From: Amphirosellinia nigrospora
Lineage: Eukaryota; Ascomycota; Sordariomycetes; Xylariales; Xylariaceae
Length of the DNA: 64,000 bases
Direction of reading: 5' to 3'
NCBI GenBank assembly: GCA_004123355.1
Contig: SCHM01000002.1
Location: 1,488,001 to 1,552,000, forward strand
Position numbers and translations under genes: made by a program. Under the pieces are notes generated by a model. The model ran no database searches, was not told where the DNA came from, and saw only the letters and a list, made by a program, of their open reading frames with translations. Each line of letters starts with the position of its first letter. Position 1 is the stretch's first letter. Positions 23,201-51,620 of the stretch are shown in pieces.

Positions 23201-24376
23201 GAAACCATACGGGGTCACGCATAAAAATAAGGTGAGTGGTAATTAGTGCCCATGCAGCTTCGTTGCTAACTCTATCTAGTTCCGTTGGATGGAGCAGGGG
23301 TGACGATGTTGGTGATTGGATGACTGCTTATCCTCTGGCTGCGAGGACGCTTGCCAGCCCGGTGTTTTTATCTTCTGATTAATCTCTCTTCCTGTTTCTC
23401 TGTAACTCGTTGGACTAGCCGCTCGTTTAGCTCCCAAATACATATATCTCGAGGTCACCAAGCTGTTTCAAGTGACGTTATTGTACTCGTTTGTAGCACG
23501 AGTCCATGGTATGAGCAATTTGAGTGACGCCACCCTGATATAAGCACACAATAATACACGTGGTGTTATACAGGATACTCGAGCCAACCCAAACCTCACC
23601 TAAATATGTCAGGCCGACCTTGGTTTAAAATAAAGTGAGTATGTAATACTGAGAGGAAGAGCCATAAGCTCTCGAAGTTAGTTACATGCTGTCAGGCACA
23701 CCGCTTTAGAAATACCATCACCGCTTTCGTAGATCGCTAGTATGCCTCGCTGGGACTGACAAAGGGGCTGGGATTTGTGTATGTAGCTAGGAGGGGTACT
23801 GGGTATTAGAACCCTCGCGCAACAATAGATGTCATGCCGTATCTTATGGGCAGCTCACACGAAGGTCCTGGCACACGTTCAACTACGCAGCATTAGTAAC
23901 CACAGCTACTTTGTGTGTGTTAATAATACACCCCGAACTATAGGGATGTAGACGAGCGCCCCGCGGAAAACATATTTCCAACTGTCTAATCAATCACCCA
24001 TATTAGATATGGAAACCGGTCTGTTTCGCTGCATGTACCGCGTAGGCCAGTAATAGTATTGCATCGAGGACCAAGAGTTGGCGGGCTTAGGTAGTTACCT
24101 ATAGCTAAAGGTCGGGGCAATTGTTGTTTACTCTGAATGAGATGTTGTAATATGGTTTTGCGGAAGCAGCACGTGGTATCGGCAGCCACGTGCGTGCTAA
24201 CCCACGCACAGACCCTGCAGGATAGGGGCCCACTGACACCAAATTAAAGCTGAAAAAAAAAGGCAACGGGGAAAATCGCGAAGAAAATAAAAAAGTTGCT
24301 TGAAAGGAAAGATAAAAAGAGGGGGAAAAAAAGATGGGTTGCTGCTCTCAGTTGAACTGGGAGGCATCAGGAATTG
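23201..24376. other. Intergenic between secreted-peptide gene and tRNA gene
   Basis: No gene recognised. On the minus strand, downstream of the tRNA, a run of seven T residues lies opposite about 24326-24332 and could terminate RNA polymerase III some 45 nt after the tRNA 3-prime end. Confidence 0.5.
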
Positions 24377-24508
24377 AGCCCGATGCGGGGGTCGAACCTG
24401 GCAAGGGATGTCAGTATAGGTCGAACGTGGTAGATATGACGATGATAAAAACTCACCCGCAACCTTGAGATTAAGAGTCTCACGCTCTACCGATTGAGCT
24501 AACCGGGC
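24377..24508 (-). tRNA. tRNA-Lys(CUU) interrupted by a 59-nt intron-like segment in the T stem
   Basis: Removing 24398-24456 leaves a 73-nt tRNA with every stem paired: acceptor GCCCGGT/ATCGGGC, D stem GCTC/GAGC with loop AATCGGTA, anticodon stem TGAGA/TCTCA with loop CTCTTAA (anticodon CTT), variable AGGTT, T stem GCGGG/CCCGC with loop TTCGACC, and discriminator T. The A box is intact and the B box (GGTTCGACC) lies after the insertion. There is no intron at the usual position 37/38. A minus-strand open frame covers the locus, but its beginning (ARLAQSVERETLNLKVAG) is just the conceptual translation of a tRNA-Lys. The tRNA identity is certain. Whether it is functional, processed or dead depends on the insertion. 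Confidence 0.9.
24398..24456 (-). other. Intron-like insertion within the tRNA T stem
   Basis: 59 nt beginning GTGAGT and ending CCTTGCCAG, with TACTGACAT placing a branch-type CTGAC about 12 nt before the AG. Length, donor, branch and acceptor all match spliceosomal introns of neighbouring protein genes. It falls between tRNA positions 52 and 53; a G at both ends makes the exact cut ambiguous by one base. It holds an 8-bp copy of the B-box core (GTTCGACC), also present just after its end, and a TTTTT run that could weaken Pol III read-through. Confidence 0.75.
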
Positions 24509-32723: not shown

Positions 32724-35700
32724 TTATGTCGAGGTGTTGCTAGACCCGGTCCCCGACGATCCAGGACGTTTATCAGTAGAATCCGTCTCTTGATCAGATA
32801 ACCGACGATATTTACCGAGGCGAAGTTTCTCATCAAGTAGTGACATCAGGCGTTCTGAATATTGATCTAAGAGGCCGCTGAGCATTGTATCGCTCATCGC
32901 CTTGCTTCGTGTTGCCCGGTCTCCAAGAGCAACTGCTGTAAGACGGAGTTCCTGGTCTAGTTCGGCTAGGACCTCCTGGCTAATGGGATCTGTGGAAGTG
33001 AGCTTCTTCCGATAAGCCCGTAAGGTTCGGCAAGTTTGTTCAGTAGACATATTGAGTGACCCAAAAGACCTCAAACTGTCGTTGCTCTTTGTTTTAGCCG
33101 AGTTCAGCGTCTGCCTAGAAGGACGTCGCCTTACTTTAGCTTTGGGGCTGACCGGGGGCTACCAGAGGGTGTGCCCGGTCGTCGCCGTGACGGTGTATCG
33201 TCGGCAATGGCAAGAGCTGGACTCAATGGTGGTGCGGGTATGGGCGTTTTCGTGCCAGATGCGGATGAGAAGTTCCCCGGAAACAGTGATCGCCTCTTAG
33301 ATGCTGGTCGTGGAGGCGACCTACGGCCACCAGCTGCAGATGGGGGTCGTTGAAATTCTGCGAGTTCGGTTTTCGATAGAACACGTCTCAAGGTTGGTTG
33401 GTTTATGGGAGTAGTAGTTTCTTTCACGGGTGAGGAATCGCGACTAGCGGAACCCCATGCCCGATCTTGAAGGTCTATCTCCCAGATCATGATAGTCCCA
33501 TCAGACCCAACACTCACAACCTTTCGATTAGAATCATCTTCCTCAATCAAAGCGACACCTTGTATCGCCTCCGAATGTCCCCACTCTCGGGCCAGGAAAT
33601 GACCTGTCTGGGTGTCATACATTCTGATTGATTTGTCGGTATTGGAAAGACCGAGAAGAAATCCCGGTTCTTTTTCGGTGGCCGAATGGGTTGTGAGGGA
33701 ATCCAGGATAACGGAATCTGCACCACCTTCATCGAAGCACTTAAAAGAGCTTGATAGTTTTCCGGTATCTAGGTCGAATACAAAAACGGATCGCTCAGCC
33801 TGAGATACGAAAAGGGTTTTCCCATCGGTGCTAACCGCCATGGATGTTGGGGATGCCTTCAAAGAAAGTGTTCGAGAAGGAATAGCTGCCATGACATTAG
33901 GATCGCCTTCTTTCGTCACTAGGTCATGTATTTGCACCGTCCTGTCTAATGAGCAGGTGATTATTTTATCCGATGATGGGATCAAAACCTGAGACACCCT
34001 GGCTGCAAATTCGAGTGTCTGAAAATGCTCAAAATCTCCGTTAGTTAGCCGATGAAATAGTTGAGTGGTGCGATCACGACCGCATGACGCGATGAGGATA
34101 TTAGATTTATCCTCGTATGTCATGATGAATTGACAGTCTGAAGAGTGTGCTTTCATAGATGACACACACTCCCCAGTAGTAAAGTCAACTACCTTGACAA
34201 ATCCTAGTTTATCTCCGGCAATGAAGAACTTGCCATCCCTTGTTGCGCGAATCGTGACCATCTGGTTTACTAAGTCGGAGTCCTCATCGAAATAGGCCTC
34301 ATCCAGCGGTACTTGAAAAGACGATTTTATTGTACCGTCGGTAGACCATAGTATCACGTGGCCGGATAGCGACCACGTGTAGAATTGGGCTCCTGTTACA
34401 TTTGACTGAGATAGGCTTCCAACACCCATAACCGCATCTCCGTGCCCCAGTATAGGAATCGATGTCGATTCGATCCTTGGCGCTCCGGGGATGTGATCTT
34501 GATTCCAGATATCAATAGAGCGTTTAGTGTCAACCGTGACCATTTTGTCGTTCAAGAATCCCAACGCAAGTACCCCCGCACCACTAGGTCCTTCAGTAGT
34601 CGTCCGAATACAGTTAGGTGATACCTTTAAAAAGGAGTCCAAGTCGAGTGTTGTAAAGTTGCCAGATTTGCCACCGATATAGATGAGGCCGTTGCGGATA
34701 GCAACGCATGTTGTCACAAATCCACTTTCGAGGACATGTATTAATTTGATCTGCTTCCCAACCTCGTCTAATAAGCATATATCTCCCGTCTCAGAGCAGA
34801 TGATGGCCTTGGTGTCGTCAATGGTGGCAGCGCACGAAAATGTGGCCTCGATCATATTGCCGAGCACAACGTTTCTGCCTGGTAGTGTCTTCCGCGTTTG
34901 TGTCGTAGGCGTTACGTCTCCAATGAATTTCTGCTTCACCGGAGAGGTCGCCTGCGTTTCATCGATACGCCAGACCTTGACATGACGTACGCCCAGGGTA
35001 ATGAGGTTGTTGCCTACCCAGATCATTCCTTTGATGTAAGTCGTGCATCTATTTTGCTGAAACAACTTTGCCGCGCCAGTTCTCGGATCTATTTTCCATA
35101 CGTAAAGGAAACCATCGTTCGAGGATCCGAGGGAGGCGAGGAATCTGGAATCGGGAGACCAGGCAACTGCTTTCACACCGTAGGCATGTTCACTAATGCA
35201 GACCAGCGGAGTATCGGACGAGCTGTCCTCAAGGCTGTAGATAAGGACTCGCGGGCGTAGCCTGTCTCGCCCACAGCTAAAAACTTTCCCTCCTTGCTTA
35301 AAGCAAGGCACGTTGCAGCCTTGATGCGCTCTCGACTGGTCCATGTCTTGGAGGTGGGGGATTCTCCCCAGTCGTTCGAACTGTAGGTAGAATCTCGTAG
35401 GGAGATTCTATTTCGACTGTCATTCGCTTTTGGGGTGGATGGTGACGATGTTGAGTTTGAAAGGGCCGGGGTGCTGTATATAGGCGTGGCCGTCGGGCGT
35501 GCTCTAAAGAATCTCTGTCCGCAGCTATCGCCATTCACATCTACCACCACAACAGCTCCGCCGGCGATGTACGCAAACGAGGATTTAACGGCATCGAAGC
35601 CGGTGGGAGAAACACACGTGGTCCCGATTACACGTTTCAAGGAGAGTCGAGAATCATAGAACGAGGGCGCTCGGCCACGGTGAGGGGACCGAGGAGGGCG

Positions 35701-45530: not shown

Positions 45531-46999
45531 TTAGTATTGGTAGAGTGCGCTCATGACTACGATAGGTGATGCGATAGCACATGCTCTTTCGTCCGGTTGT
45601 GGATGCGTGAACTCGTCCGACAGCTTGACGTCTTCGACGTCGTCGTCGGCCACACTGCGCACAATCTCCATCACGTCGTTCTCGTGGAAGTCGTGCACAT
45701 TAGCCTTCGTATTGCCACCAGCTGCCGATGTTGGCTTGAGCCAGAACGCCACGTCCTTGTAGCACGATGGGTGCTTGGAGAAACGCTTGAAGCGCTTTAA
45801 CAAGTCCAGGTTGTCTGAGACTCCTTTGAACTGGTTGGTGAACCGGCTGTCTTGTGACCAGAAAAGCCGAATATCGGGAATCTTGAACAACAACATGGCG
45901 ATGCGGTCGAGGCCTATGCCGAAGGCCCACCCGACCTGGTTAGGCACGCTTGCATTGATATAAATGTCCTGCTTAACCACACCACAGCCCAGAACCTCGA
46001 GCCAATCACCGTCATAATACACTTCGAGCTCCCATGACGGGCTTGTGAAGGGGAAGTATGCCTCGACCCAGCGAACCTGGAGCGGCTCGTCGACGAATTC
46101 GGGGCTAGCTTTGGCTGCAGCCTGAGCTCTCGTGAATATTTCCACCACCATGAGCTCCAGGGACCTCTTCAAATGGGCTGCGATGGCCTCGGCCTCGGCC
46201 GCCGAGTGGTGGTCTTCCTGCAGCGGGTTCCGCTCGTGGTGGAACGGCGGGTTGGGGTCCTGAACCTCCGATGTTGTGTTTCGGTAGTTTTTCTATATCC
46301 GACCACACGGCGGCCGCGATGTCGCCATTGGGCACCTTCGTCCGGTCCCACGAACGCGCCCCTTCCATCTGGTGGAATATCGGGTAGTGGCTGCGGTCGA
46401 TTTCATCGCGGCGGTAAACGTCAGCGCTGATTAAGTATCCGTCGCTTAGGTTCGCCCGAAACGTTTCAGCCTGATGCGCACTTGTGTGAGTCCGCAGTAG
46501 CGTGTTGCTATTGACATAGTATGTATCCGACTTGGCGCGGCCGGGATGATCTTTGGGGAAGCCTAGTGAGTCGAAGTTTTGGTGGGTTGTCACGACGGGA
46601 TTGAGGTCGTTGTGGTATTTGTAGGTGGGCGGTGGGAAGACGGACTCGATGATCTGACGGGTGATATACAGGGGGTGGTCCTTTTGTAAATGTAACCGGC
46701 GAGGGACCTTGTCTATAATGTTTGGCGGCGCATTGAACCATGAGTCGGTTGTATATCTCTTTCCATTGATCTCGGTCAATCTCGATTCTGTTTGTTGATC
46801 CGAGGCTATTATCGGCGCTATAGGCGAGGTGGATTAGTCTAGCTGTGACTCGAGCTACTGTATTTTTCGGTTCATGGTGATAGCGGACATACTCTTAGAC
46901 AGAAATCTGCGACCCGACCAGCAGGATTGGCAGGTCCGAAACAGAACCAACTATTCTCCTGGCGCTTCCAGAAGCGACGCTGAGCCGTGACGACCACAT
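45531..46999 (-). CDS. MSF1: Mitochondrial phenylalanyl-tRNA synthetase
   Basis: Monomeric mitochondrial PheRS, which charges mt-tRNA-Phe. ATG 46999 (MWSSRLSVASGSARRIVG) gives a basic presequence. A probable intron ends near 46,818 before APIIASDQQTESRLTEINGK. The catalytic domain follows: YTTDSWFNAPPNIIDKVPRR, RTHTSAHQAETFRANLSDGY, the class II motif 2 region YRRDEIDRSHYPIFHQMEG, LELEVYYDGDWLEVLGCGVV-type strands, and motif 3 GWAFGIGLDRIAMLLFKIPD. The C-terminal FDX-ACB anticodon-binding domain is FKRFSKHPSCYKDVAFWL. One extra G near 46,267 links the two halves. The exon 1 junction is one base out of phase, so the 5-prime structure is approximate. Confidence 0.92.
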
Positions 47000-50487: not shown

Positions 50488-51620
50488 CGTTGGCAAGGCG
50501 CAATGATAATAAAAGTAGATTATGCAGTAATTAGAGTACCAGGCGTATGATATCAGGGATCAATAGGAAGGAGTGTCGGGCGCTGTGCGCAAACATGGGC
50601 ATGGGGCGTAAAAGAAGTCAGGGTGGCGGTGGTGGTAGGAAGAAAGGGATGCGACCTCTAAGGCTGAGAAAGATTACCCATGTTGTAGTGTAGCGTTTAA
50701 ATGGTGGCTAATGCAAGGCTACCTACAGACTGGAAGCACTGGGGCGCTAAGAGGTATGCACAGCGTTACAGTTAATGAATGACAACGTAACCTACCTATC
50801 TACATTGCCAAATGCCAGTAAATCAAATACATCAATGGCAATAATGTTGACTTATCTCGGGGCTTACGCCAGTGAATGGTGTCCCGGGCGAATCAACTAG
50901 CTTCTTCTGTACATCTACACCTAAAATAGCAGCATCAAGCCTCATTTCACTGAGCCTAGCCAGCTGACAGGCATTATTCCACATAGCAGAATTGCATGCA
51001 CATTACGGTATTTAATACCATTCACTCCACTCCACATTTTACGTTGCAGATGTCGGGAGCATGGAATGAATATCTTCTTCGCCACCCTGGACTCGCCAGG
51101 TATGGAAATGAAAACATGGGAGTTCGCGTCGCCTGGAGGCAGTGTAATACCAGGGACACGGTGGAGGTGATCATGCGCAAGCACAGAGGATACACTTCCT
51201 GGAGAAAAAAATTAGAATAATCACGATTGAGTCCAAGTAGGACTCTTTCAGAGATTAAACTGAAAAGAACAGATACTACACTTGATCTAAGCCAGGCAAA
51301 GAGAGCTAAAGAAGAAAGGAAAAAACCATCAAAGGGTGGGAGGAGGGCAAGGTTTATATAGATATTCTAAGGCGGTGTGCAGGGCGGTCAAGAATTCTGC
51401 CGCATAGTTCTGCCTGCAAGGTGGGGTACAAGTACAGTGAATAGCTTCCGCCACACTTAGCCACGATCTACGCGCTGGCGGTAGGGGTCAAAAAAATATT
51501 TGACTTACCCCGGTCATATGAGCAGTGACAGCTTGCACACGCGACCCTCATTTCGACTTCCGCATAAACTATTAATTTTCTATATACATCGTACATCATC
51601 TGACAGGTATCACTACTACG
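50488..51620. other. Divergent promoter region of RPB3 and MGE1
   Basis: About 1.1 kb. A few ACCTACC repeat fragments occur near 50,730 and 50,790. Short frames on both strands lack family signal. Confidence 0.5.

Follow-up and report, generated by a model that had tools for sequence, protein, structure and literature searches.

The window, by which we mean the whole 64,000-nt stretch of Amphirosellinia nigrospora DNA that was analysed, carries on its minus strand a tRNA-Lys(CUU) gene in two pieces (L010). The gene starts at 24508 with a 52-nt exon 1 (24457..24508; tRNA positions 1-52) that comprises the 5' strand of the acceptor stem, the D arm, the anticodon arm, the variable loop and the first four nucleotides of the T stem. 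GTGAGT follows directly, and after 59 nt the tRNA resumes with GTTCGACCCCCGCATCGGGCT in a 21-nt exon 2 (24377..24397; positions 53-73) that holds the remaining T arm, the 3' strand of the acceptor stem and the discriminator T. The 59-nt insert (24398..24456, minus strand) reads as a U2-type intron: it opens with GTGAGT (24456-24451), ends in CCAG (24401-24398) and contains, as its sole CTRAY, a branch-site-like CTGAC (24410..24414) whose predicted branch A (24411) lies 13 nt before the intron end.

A retained insert precludes the T stem. The joined 73 nt fold computationally into a cloverleaf and match three intron-less genes of the same genome base for base (100%). No tRNA is called by ARAGORN anywhere in the 64,000-nt window, and the Rfam tRNA model gives the locus 31.3 bits for the 5' part and a forced end only, versus 70.3 bits for the intron-less copies. 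A preliminary description of this DNA had given the same letters, coordinates and strand for both exons and the insert, had seen a flawless 73-nt tRNA-Lys(CUU) once the insert is removed and a T stem blocked while it stays, and had named the signals GTGAGT, CTGAC and CCAG; all of this is borne out here.

The same strand shows TAGCTCAATCGG (24490..24501) and GGTTCGACCCC (24388..24398), which we take by name and consensus to be the A box and B box of an internal Pol III promoter. Within the intron, GTTCGACC (24419-24426) repeats the first eight letters of exon 2 and may be a B-box mimic, a partial duplication or chance, and a TTTTT (24447..24451) is a candidate premature Pol III terminator. Behind the tRNA lies a conserved trailer of 44 nt (24333..24376) that reaches to a run of seven T (24326..24332), the presumed Pol III terminator. 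This trailer contains a hairpin of its own (24345..24363) and could also take part in an alternative hairpin (24364..24386), made from the acceptor 3' strand GCATCGGG (24386-24379) and trailer CCTGATGC (24371-24364) and mutually exclusive with the acceptor stem. Further on, GCAACC (24337..24342) is the complement of GGTTGC in exon 1 (24464-24459).

Five introns at one position of a tRNA family

A DNA search of the A. nigrospora genome (48.1 Mb in 11 contigs) with the joined tRNA returns nine matches: three are full-length and intron-less (L001, L002, L003), four extend up to the split only (L009, L010, L011 and L012), one is weaker (L013) and one is a relic (L014). The named proteins closest to a conserved protein of the window come from Xylaria, at 86% identity, in keeping with a Xylaria-like genome. 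An independent pattern search with the D-arm and anticodon-arm region finds eight places, the same loci minus L014. In L009 to L013, as read at the loci, the 3' exon resumes after 55-63 nt, so that five of the eight tRNA-Lys(CUU) genes detected share one split position, 52/53 in L009-L012 and the corresponding place in L013. The observation made in the preliminary description at one locus holds, but that locus is not single: it belongs to a family of five split genes plus one relic, and the other tRNA-Lys(CUU) genes come to three intron-less genes, four further split copies and this relic. The tRNA-Lys(UUU) gene (L102) is separate, and ARAGORN puts an intron in its anticodon loop.

Exon 1 is identical at 52/52 positions in the four split copies L009-L012 and the same in the three intact genes, and the exons of these four copies show 2 differences in 4 x 73 nt. 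Intron removal completes a cloverleaf with a CTT anticodon: L010 and L011, once joined, are the exact 73-nt tRNA of the intron-less genes, L009 has C68 changed to T, leaving a G-U pair in the acceptor stem, and L012 has one C fewer in a C run of the T arm. The anticodon arm is identical in 8/8 genes. L013 carries three exon-1 changes (one in the A box; two break pairs) and a trailer that misfits the shared hairpins, and the relic L014 matches at 85% over 54 nt, with no 3' exon seen by eye in the following 246 nt; both look like decaying members of the family.

All five introns, 55-63 nt long, have U2-type signals. Their 5' sites fit GTRAGY throughout (GTGAGT four times, GTAAGC once), each contains exactly one CTRAY at the usual distance (branch A 13 nt from the intron end four times, 9 nt once), and each ends in AG, preceded by a pyrimidine in four and as AAG in L009. 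In a set of 2022 Fusarium introns, 91% contain CTRAY and 93% have a pyrimidine ahead of the AG (PMC5677156). The two strands of the window contain 4434 GT..AG stretches that are 55-63 nt long, of which 2, one of them the insert, combine GTRAGY with a CTRAY placed 8-15 nt from the end; a chance match at one place is ruled out by the five loci. Joining in silico at GTGAGT gives a 73-74-nt tRNA-Lys in 4/4 copies with a YAG end, as judged by ARAGORN, which passed five joins at other GTs as well, each with at least 4 surplus bases. The preliminary description had seen the same signals in introns of nearby protein genes. Our check of this claim covers two placed introns of the proteasome alpha-2 gene in the window (its third intron and the WD-repeat and PheRS genes contributed none), one of 52 nt with GTGAGC..CAG, which has TTAAC instead of CTRAY, and the other of 49 nt with GTACGC..CTAAC..AAG.

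An assembly artefact is implausible, since sequencing errors would hardly produce five different inserts at one site; single-base homopolymer errors are possible. In two protein genes of the window, encoding a WD-repeat protein (35230-35290 and 33134-33158) and mitochondrial PheRS (46249-46268), homology to intact relatives shifts frame with no room for an intron. These frame shifts, like the loss of single bases from C and G runs in tRNA copies, may be homopolymer indel errors in the assembly.

The intron cores are mutually unlike, with 0/10 pairs clearly above shuffles and the best pair reached by 28 of 300 shuffles, and the window intron with 4-5 nt of flank, searched in the genome, finds itself only. 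A propagating intron family was rejected on these grounds, and the stwintron pattern of two nested U2 introns is absent from the tRNA-Lys introns, each of which has one CTRAY in 55-63 nt. The search for the same split in other tRNA types covered introns at the 52/53 position only. A pattern of YAG plus B box occurs at 112 places in the genome (72 for the same pattern reversed), and 100 of the 112 were listed; the test took in 30 of these and 60 of 64 others, making 90 loci, with 6 left aside (two tRNA-Lys and four tRNA-Ser, all previously identified). At the 94 distinct sites joined in these 90 loci and six tRNA-Lys loci, a tRNA across the junction appears for tRNA-Lys only, apart from one artefact in which an intact tRNA-Ala was joined to a neighbouring gene. 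The tRNA list of the genome rests on the scoring of 63 of 1644 candidates.

The split genes could be dead copies, descended by duplication from one tRNA-Lys gene that an intron had broken, with the intron-less genes making all the tRNA. Three intact genes do exist and could supply all tRNA-Lys(CUU), L013 and L014 are damaged, and the window intron contains T5; however, exon 1 has stayed the same in all 52 positions of four split copies whose introns have lost detectable similarity, the splice signals are kept in 5/5 introns, and the relic L014 shows how decay looks in this family. Gene conversion from the intact genes would be expected to erase the introns along with the class-specific trailer letters, and we infer that it would have had to halt at both splice sites every time. 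Drifted introns beside fixed exons argue for selection on the joined product and are not explained by neutral decay. We consider dead copies improbable and disfavour the killed gene that the preliminary description had offered as an alternative; the split-gene arrangement is real, repeated and probably functional. As to its origin, intron loss in the line of L001-L003 and intron gain before the duplications both fit the sequences.

Promoters, terminators and trailers

An A box, a B box and then a T-run can be made out by eye in all eight tRNA-Lys(CUU) genes, with one A-box change in L013. The B box is complete in the split gene because the last G of the intron substitutes for G52, from which we infer that an AG-ended intron at 52/53 keeps both promoter boxes whole; the site would be tolerated because such an intron, lying just before GTTCGA, leaves the B box intact. 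Given both boxes and the T-run, a Pol III transcript is the simplest reading, and these elements suggest Pol III transcription of the split tRNA-Lys genes. As far as sequence alone goes, the genes have what characterises the U6 class, namely a Pol III promoter, a terminator and a U2-type intron in a non-coding RNA.

T4 or more occurs in none of the other four tRNA-Lys introns, and the window intron has T5. Among the tRNA genes read, 59 are followed by a T-run within 200 nt, the first such run being T5 in 24 of them, and T5 or more is found in 0/60 gene bodies (T4 in 3/60), which suggests that Pol III may often stop in the window intron and that transcription of this copy may be poor even if the sibling copies work. 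A claim of T-run avoidance by Pol III introns in general was given up because the numbers are too small.

The distance from tRNA to first run of T4 or more is 39-44 nt in the eight tRNA-Lys(CUU) genes. In a limited sample of the genome's intact tRNA genes, from which one spurious ARAGORN call was excluded, this run begins 38-41 nt past the ARAGORN end in 3/3 intact tRNA-Lys(CUU) genes, 32-37 nt past the tRNA in 5/6 tRNA-Ala(AGC) genes and within 16 nt in 44/50 others. In five tRNA-Ala(AGC) loci with the first run of T4 or more at 32-37 nt, the trailer can form a second T-arm-like hairpin, GGAGGTTCAATTCCTCC in L091 and a variant of it in L090, L092, L093 and L107, with a B-box-like motif.

Upstream of the genes, similarity extends over -76 to -22 in L001, -60 to -6 in L003, -100 to -53 in L012 and -47 to -30 in L002; a TATA-like stretch precedes L001, L003 and L012, and CAACA-CAGCAGC precedes all four. 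L012 and L003 have the TATA-like stretch and CAGCAGCAGCA in common, a match that 0 of 200 shuffles equals, and the CAG-rich part of L012 has a fainter resemblance to L001 and L002. For L009, L010, L011 and L013, the 150 nt ahead of the gene have no clear likeness to those of the other copies.

mRNA-type introns normally belong to Pol II transcripts, and the tRNA might thus lie within a longer Pol II non-coding transcript from which the spliceosome and tRNA enzymes would free it, a reading to which the upstream block with its TATA-like stretch in L001, L003 and L012 would lend itself. Against this, 8/8 genes have the A box, the B box and the T-run (with the one change in L013), the upstream regions of L009, L010, L011 and L013 show no clear likeness to those of the other copies, and the 115-aa ORF that runs across the locus is a mechanical reading only. 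We therefore hold it to be highly improbable, and the Pol II transcript of the preliminary description is unsupported: the two boxes and the T-run terminator point to Pol III, for which a U6 gene offers a precedent in this genome.

The trailer hairpin, with compensatory changes, is common to seven of the eight genes, split and unsplit. Five of its seven pairs are changed on both sides across the eight genes, or four of seven without L013; one both-sides pair depends on L013, which misfits the register, so four pairs are solid. For the structure containing this hairpin, 5/500 shuffles reach the count of both-sides pairs, 3/500 the covariation score and 0/500 the share of paired cells, but 172/500 reach the number of further pair types; slid versions score lower. 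Since the structure was derived from the same eight related genes, this covariation is support rather than proof. The trailer of L012 is of the split type despite its upstream kinship with the intron-less genes.

The acceptor strand GCATCGGG can pair with trailer CCYGATGC in all genes except L013, and GGTTGC of exon 1 with trailer GCAACC would form six pairs in L009-L012 and five in the genes without an intron. The acceptor-trailer hairpin is the favoured computed fold in 3/4 unspliced and 3/4 spliced precursors and, in part, in intron-less precursors too; the L001 trailer, placed behind four introns, gives it in 4/4 (0.72-0.97). Because this trailer of an intron-less gene folds alike behind introns, the case for a trailer switch peculiar to split genes loses weight, and what these models leave is the possibility of a splicing switch that is not specific to them. 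The unspliced RNA in its trailer-held fold might itself be the product, a non-coding RNA with the tRNA as by-product; the folding of the unspliced precursors and the covarying trailer hairpin could be read this way, but the intron sequence is unconserved, the anticodon arm is the same in 8/8 genes, and the intron-less genes have the trailer as well, folding alike behind an intron. The chances of this reading are very slim.

Proposed spliceosomal removal and known systems

The Rfam U6 model, applied to the genome, marks two places, with 47 of 2335 candidates scored. One is a U6 snRNA gene (L181; G000:C4:5776774-5776924, minus strand) in which the ACAGAGA box is intact and a 51-nt insert with GTAAGC...CTAAC...CACAG, an mRNA-type intron, separates GAAGAU from UAGCA; the other (L182) is U6-like, lacks the insert and has an altered ACAGAGA region, which makes it a possible pseudogene. 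In S. pombe the B box of U6 lies in the intron, and the L181 intron contains a B-box-like GTTCGAGTC. U6 of S. pombe is described as a Pol III transcript spliced by the spliceosome (PMC8917221; PMC10484740). Should L181 be the functional U6 gene, the spliceosome of this fungus would be at work on a Pol III transcript, and such removal from Pol III RNA is probably practised here already. Among 5S rRNA matches, 33/33 (115-132 nt; 47 of 2127 candidates scored) are without an intron-sized insert. The window also contains a complete U2 spliceosomal RNA gene without an intron (51118-51309, minus strand; 147.8 bits).

Taken together, we put a probability of roughly 0.84 on these being working tRNA-Lys(CUU) genes, made by Pol III, whose U2-type intron at 52/53 is removed by the spliceosome. 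Pol III, directed by the internal A and B boxes, would transcribe as far as the T-run past the trailer, giving a precursor with the intron between positions 52 and 53; the spliceosome would excise it, and the T arm would form only afterwards, whereupon RNase P and RNase Z would trim the ends of a tRNA that is presumably charged with lysine. The spliceosomal intron proposed in the preliminary description finds good support in the occurrence, at a single site, of five dissimilar introns whose signals are intact. Less easily fitted are the missing C of L012, the three exon-1 changes and odd trailer of L013, and a trailer that in computed folding competes with the acceptor stem in 3/4 copies even when spliced.

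A bolder version, which we find unlikely, would make Pol III transcripts regular substrates of the spliceosome here and the trailer a switch: by pairing with the acceptor strand and exon 1 in the unspliced RNA, it would keep RNase P and RNase Z away from the precursor as long as the spliceosome has not acted. As U6 itself needs splicing, the supply of this one lysine tRNA, and hence translation of AAG codons, would then track spliceosome capacity.

That the tRNA-splicing endonuclease and a ligase cut out a non-canonical tRNA intron, as in archaea and some algae, is barely conceivable: T-arm introns are known in archaea (53/54 and others) and nucleomorphs (PMC4090602), but reviews put nuclear introns cut by this enzyme at 37/38, except in unicellular algae and nucleomorphs (PMC3978253, PMC4090602), the introns here lie elsewhere and have ends of the U2-type consensus, and a simple pairing script finds all three 4-bp helices of a bulge-helix-bulge in 0/15 junction registers (5 introns x 3; the central helix alone forms in two), so an intron of this kind is not supported.

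For the preferred reading, splicing of Pol III-made tRNA-Lys by the spliceosome, our literature search, with most subscription journals outside its scope, turned up no description of a nuclear tRNA gene with a spliceosomal intron, in line with the preliminary description, which knew of no fungal nuclear tRNA intron at 52/53; a text search of papers for the tRNA sequence also found nothing. Three papers describe nuclear tRNA introns as endonuclease-type (PMC4090602, PMC3978253, PMC13149111), and one of these assigns tRNA splicing to enzymes distinct from the spliceosome (PMC13149111). The case would thus join known things, tRNA genes and the mRNA-type introns of Pol III genes, in a combination that we did not find described. 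If true, five mRNA-type introns in one tRNA family would amount to a new class of tRNA intron, the spliceosome would handle Pol III transcripts beyond U6, and such genes would be overlooked by gene finders, as ARAGORN does in the window. Split and unsplit copies of an identical tRNA in the same cell also offer a natural experiment on intron gain and loss.

Canonical nuclear tRNA introns, which follow position 37, likewise sit inside a nuclear tRNA that becomes functional only on their removal, but they differ in position, in signals and in enzyme (tRNA endonuclease and ligase). The non-canonical introns of archaea, nucleomorphs and red algae can lie in the T arm (PMC4090602), but they depend on a bulge-helix-bulge and the tRNA endonuclease, and this motif was not found in the tRNA-Lys introns. 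Xylariaceae and Hypoxylaceae gain U2 introns at new gene positions, recently so in Xylariaceae, according to two papers (PMC12403724, PMC8469720) in whose main text the word tRNA is absent; unlike the stwintrons and related new introns of these papers, the tRNA-Lys introns are single, short and mutually unlike. U6 with an mRNA-type intron, in S. pombe and in L181 here, resembles the tRNA-Lys genes as a Pol III type gene with a short U2-type intron, and in this genome both have split and unsplit copies side by side (U6-like L181 and L182). The intron of U6 is thought to stem from reverse splicing near the catalytic nucleotides (PMC10484740); U6 is a component of the spliceosome, whereas a tRNA has no such link, and the B-box-like element of L181 lies in its intron, whereas tRNA-Lys has its B box at the start of exon 2.
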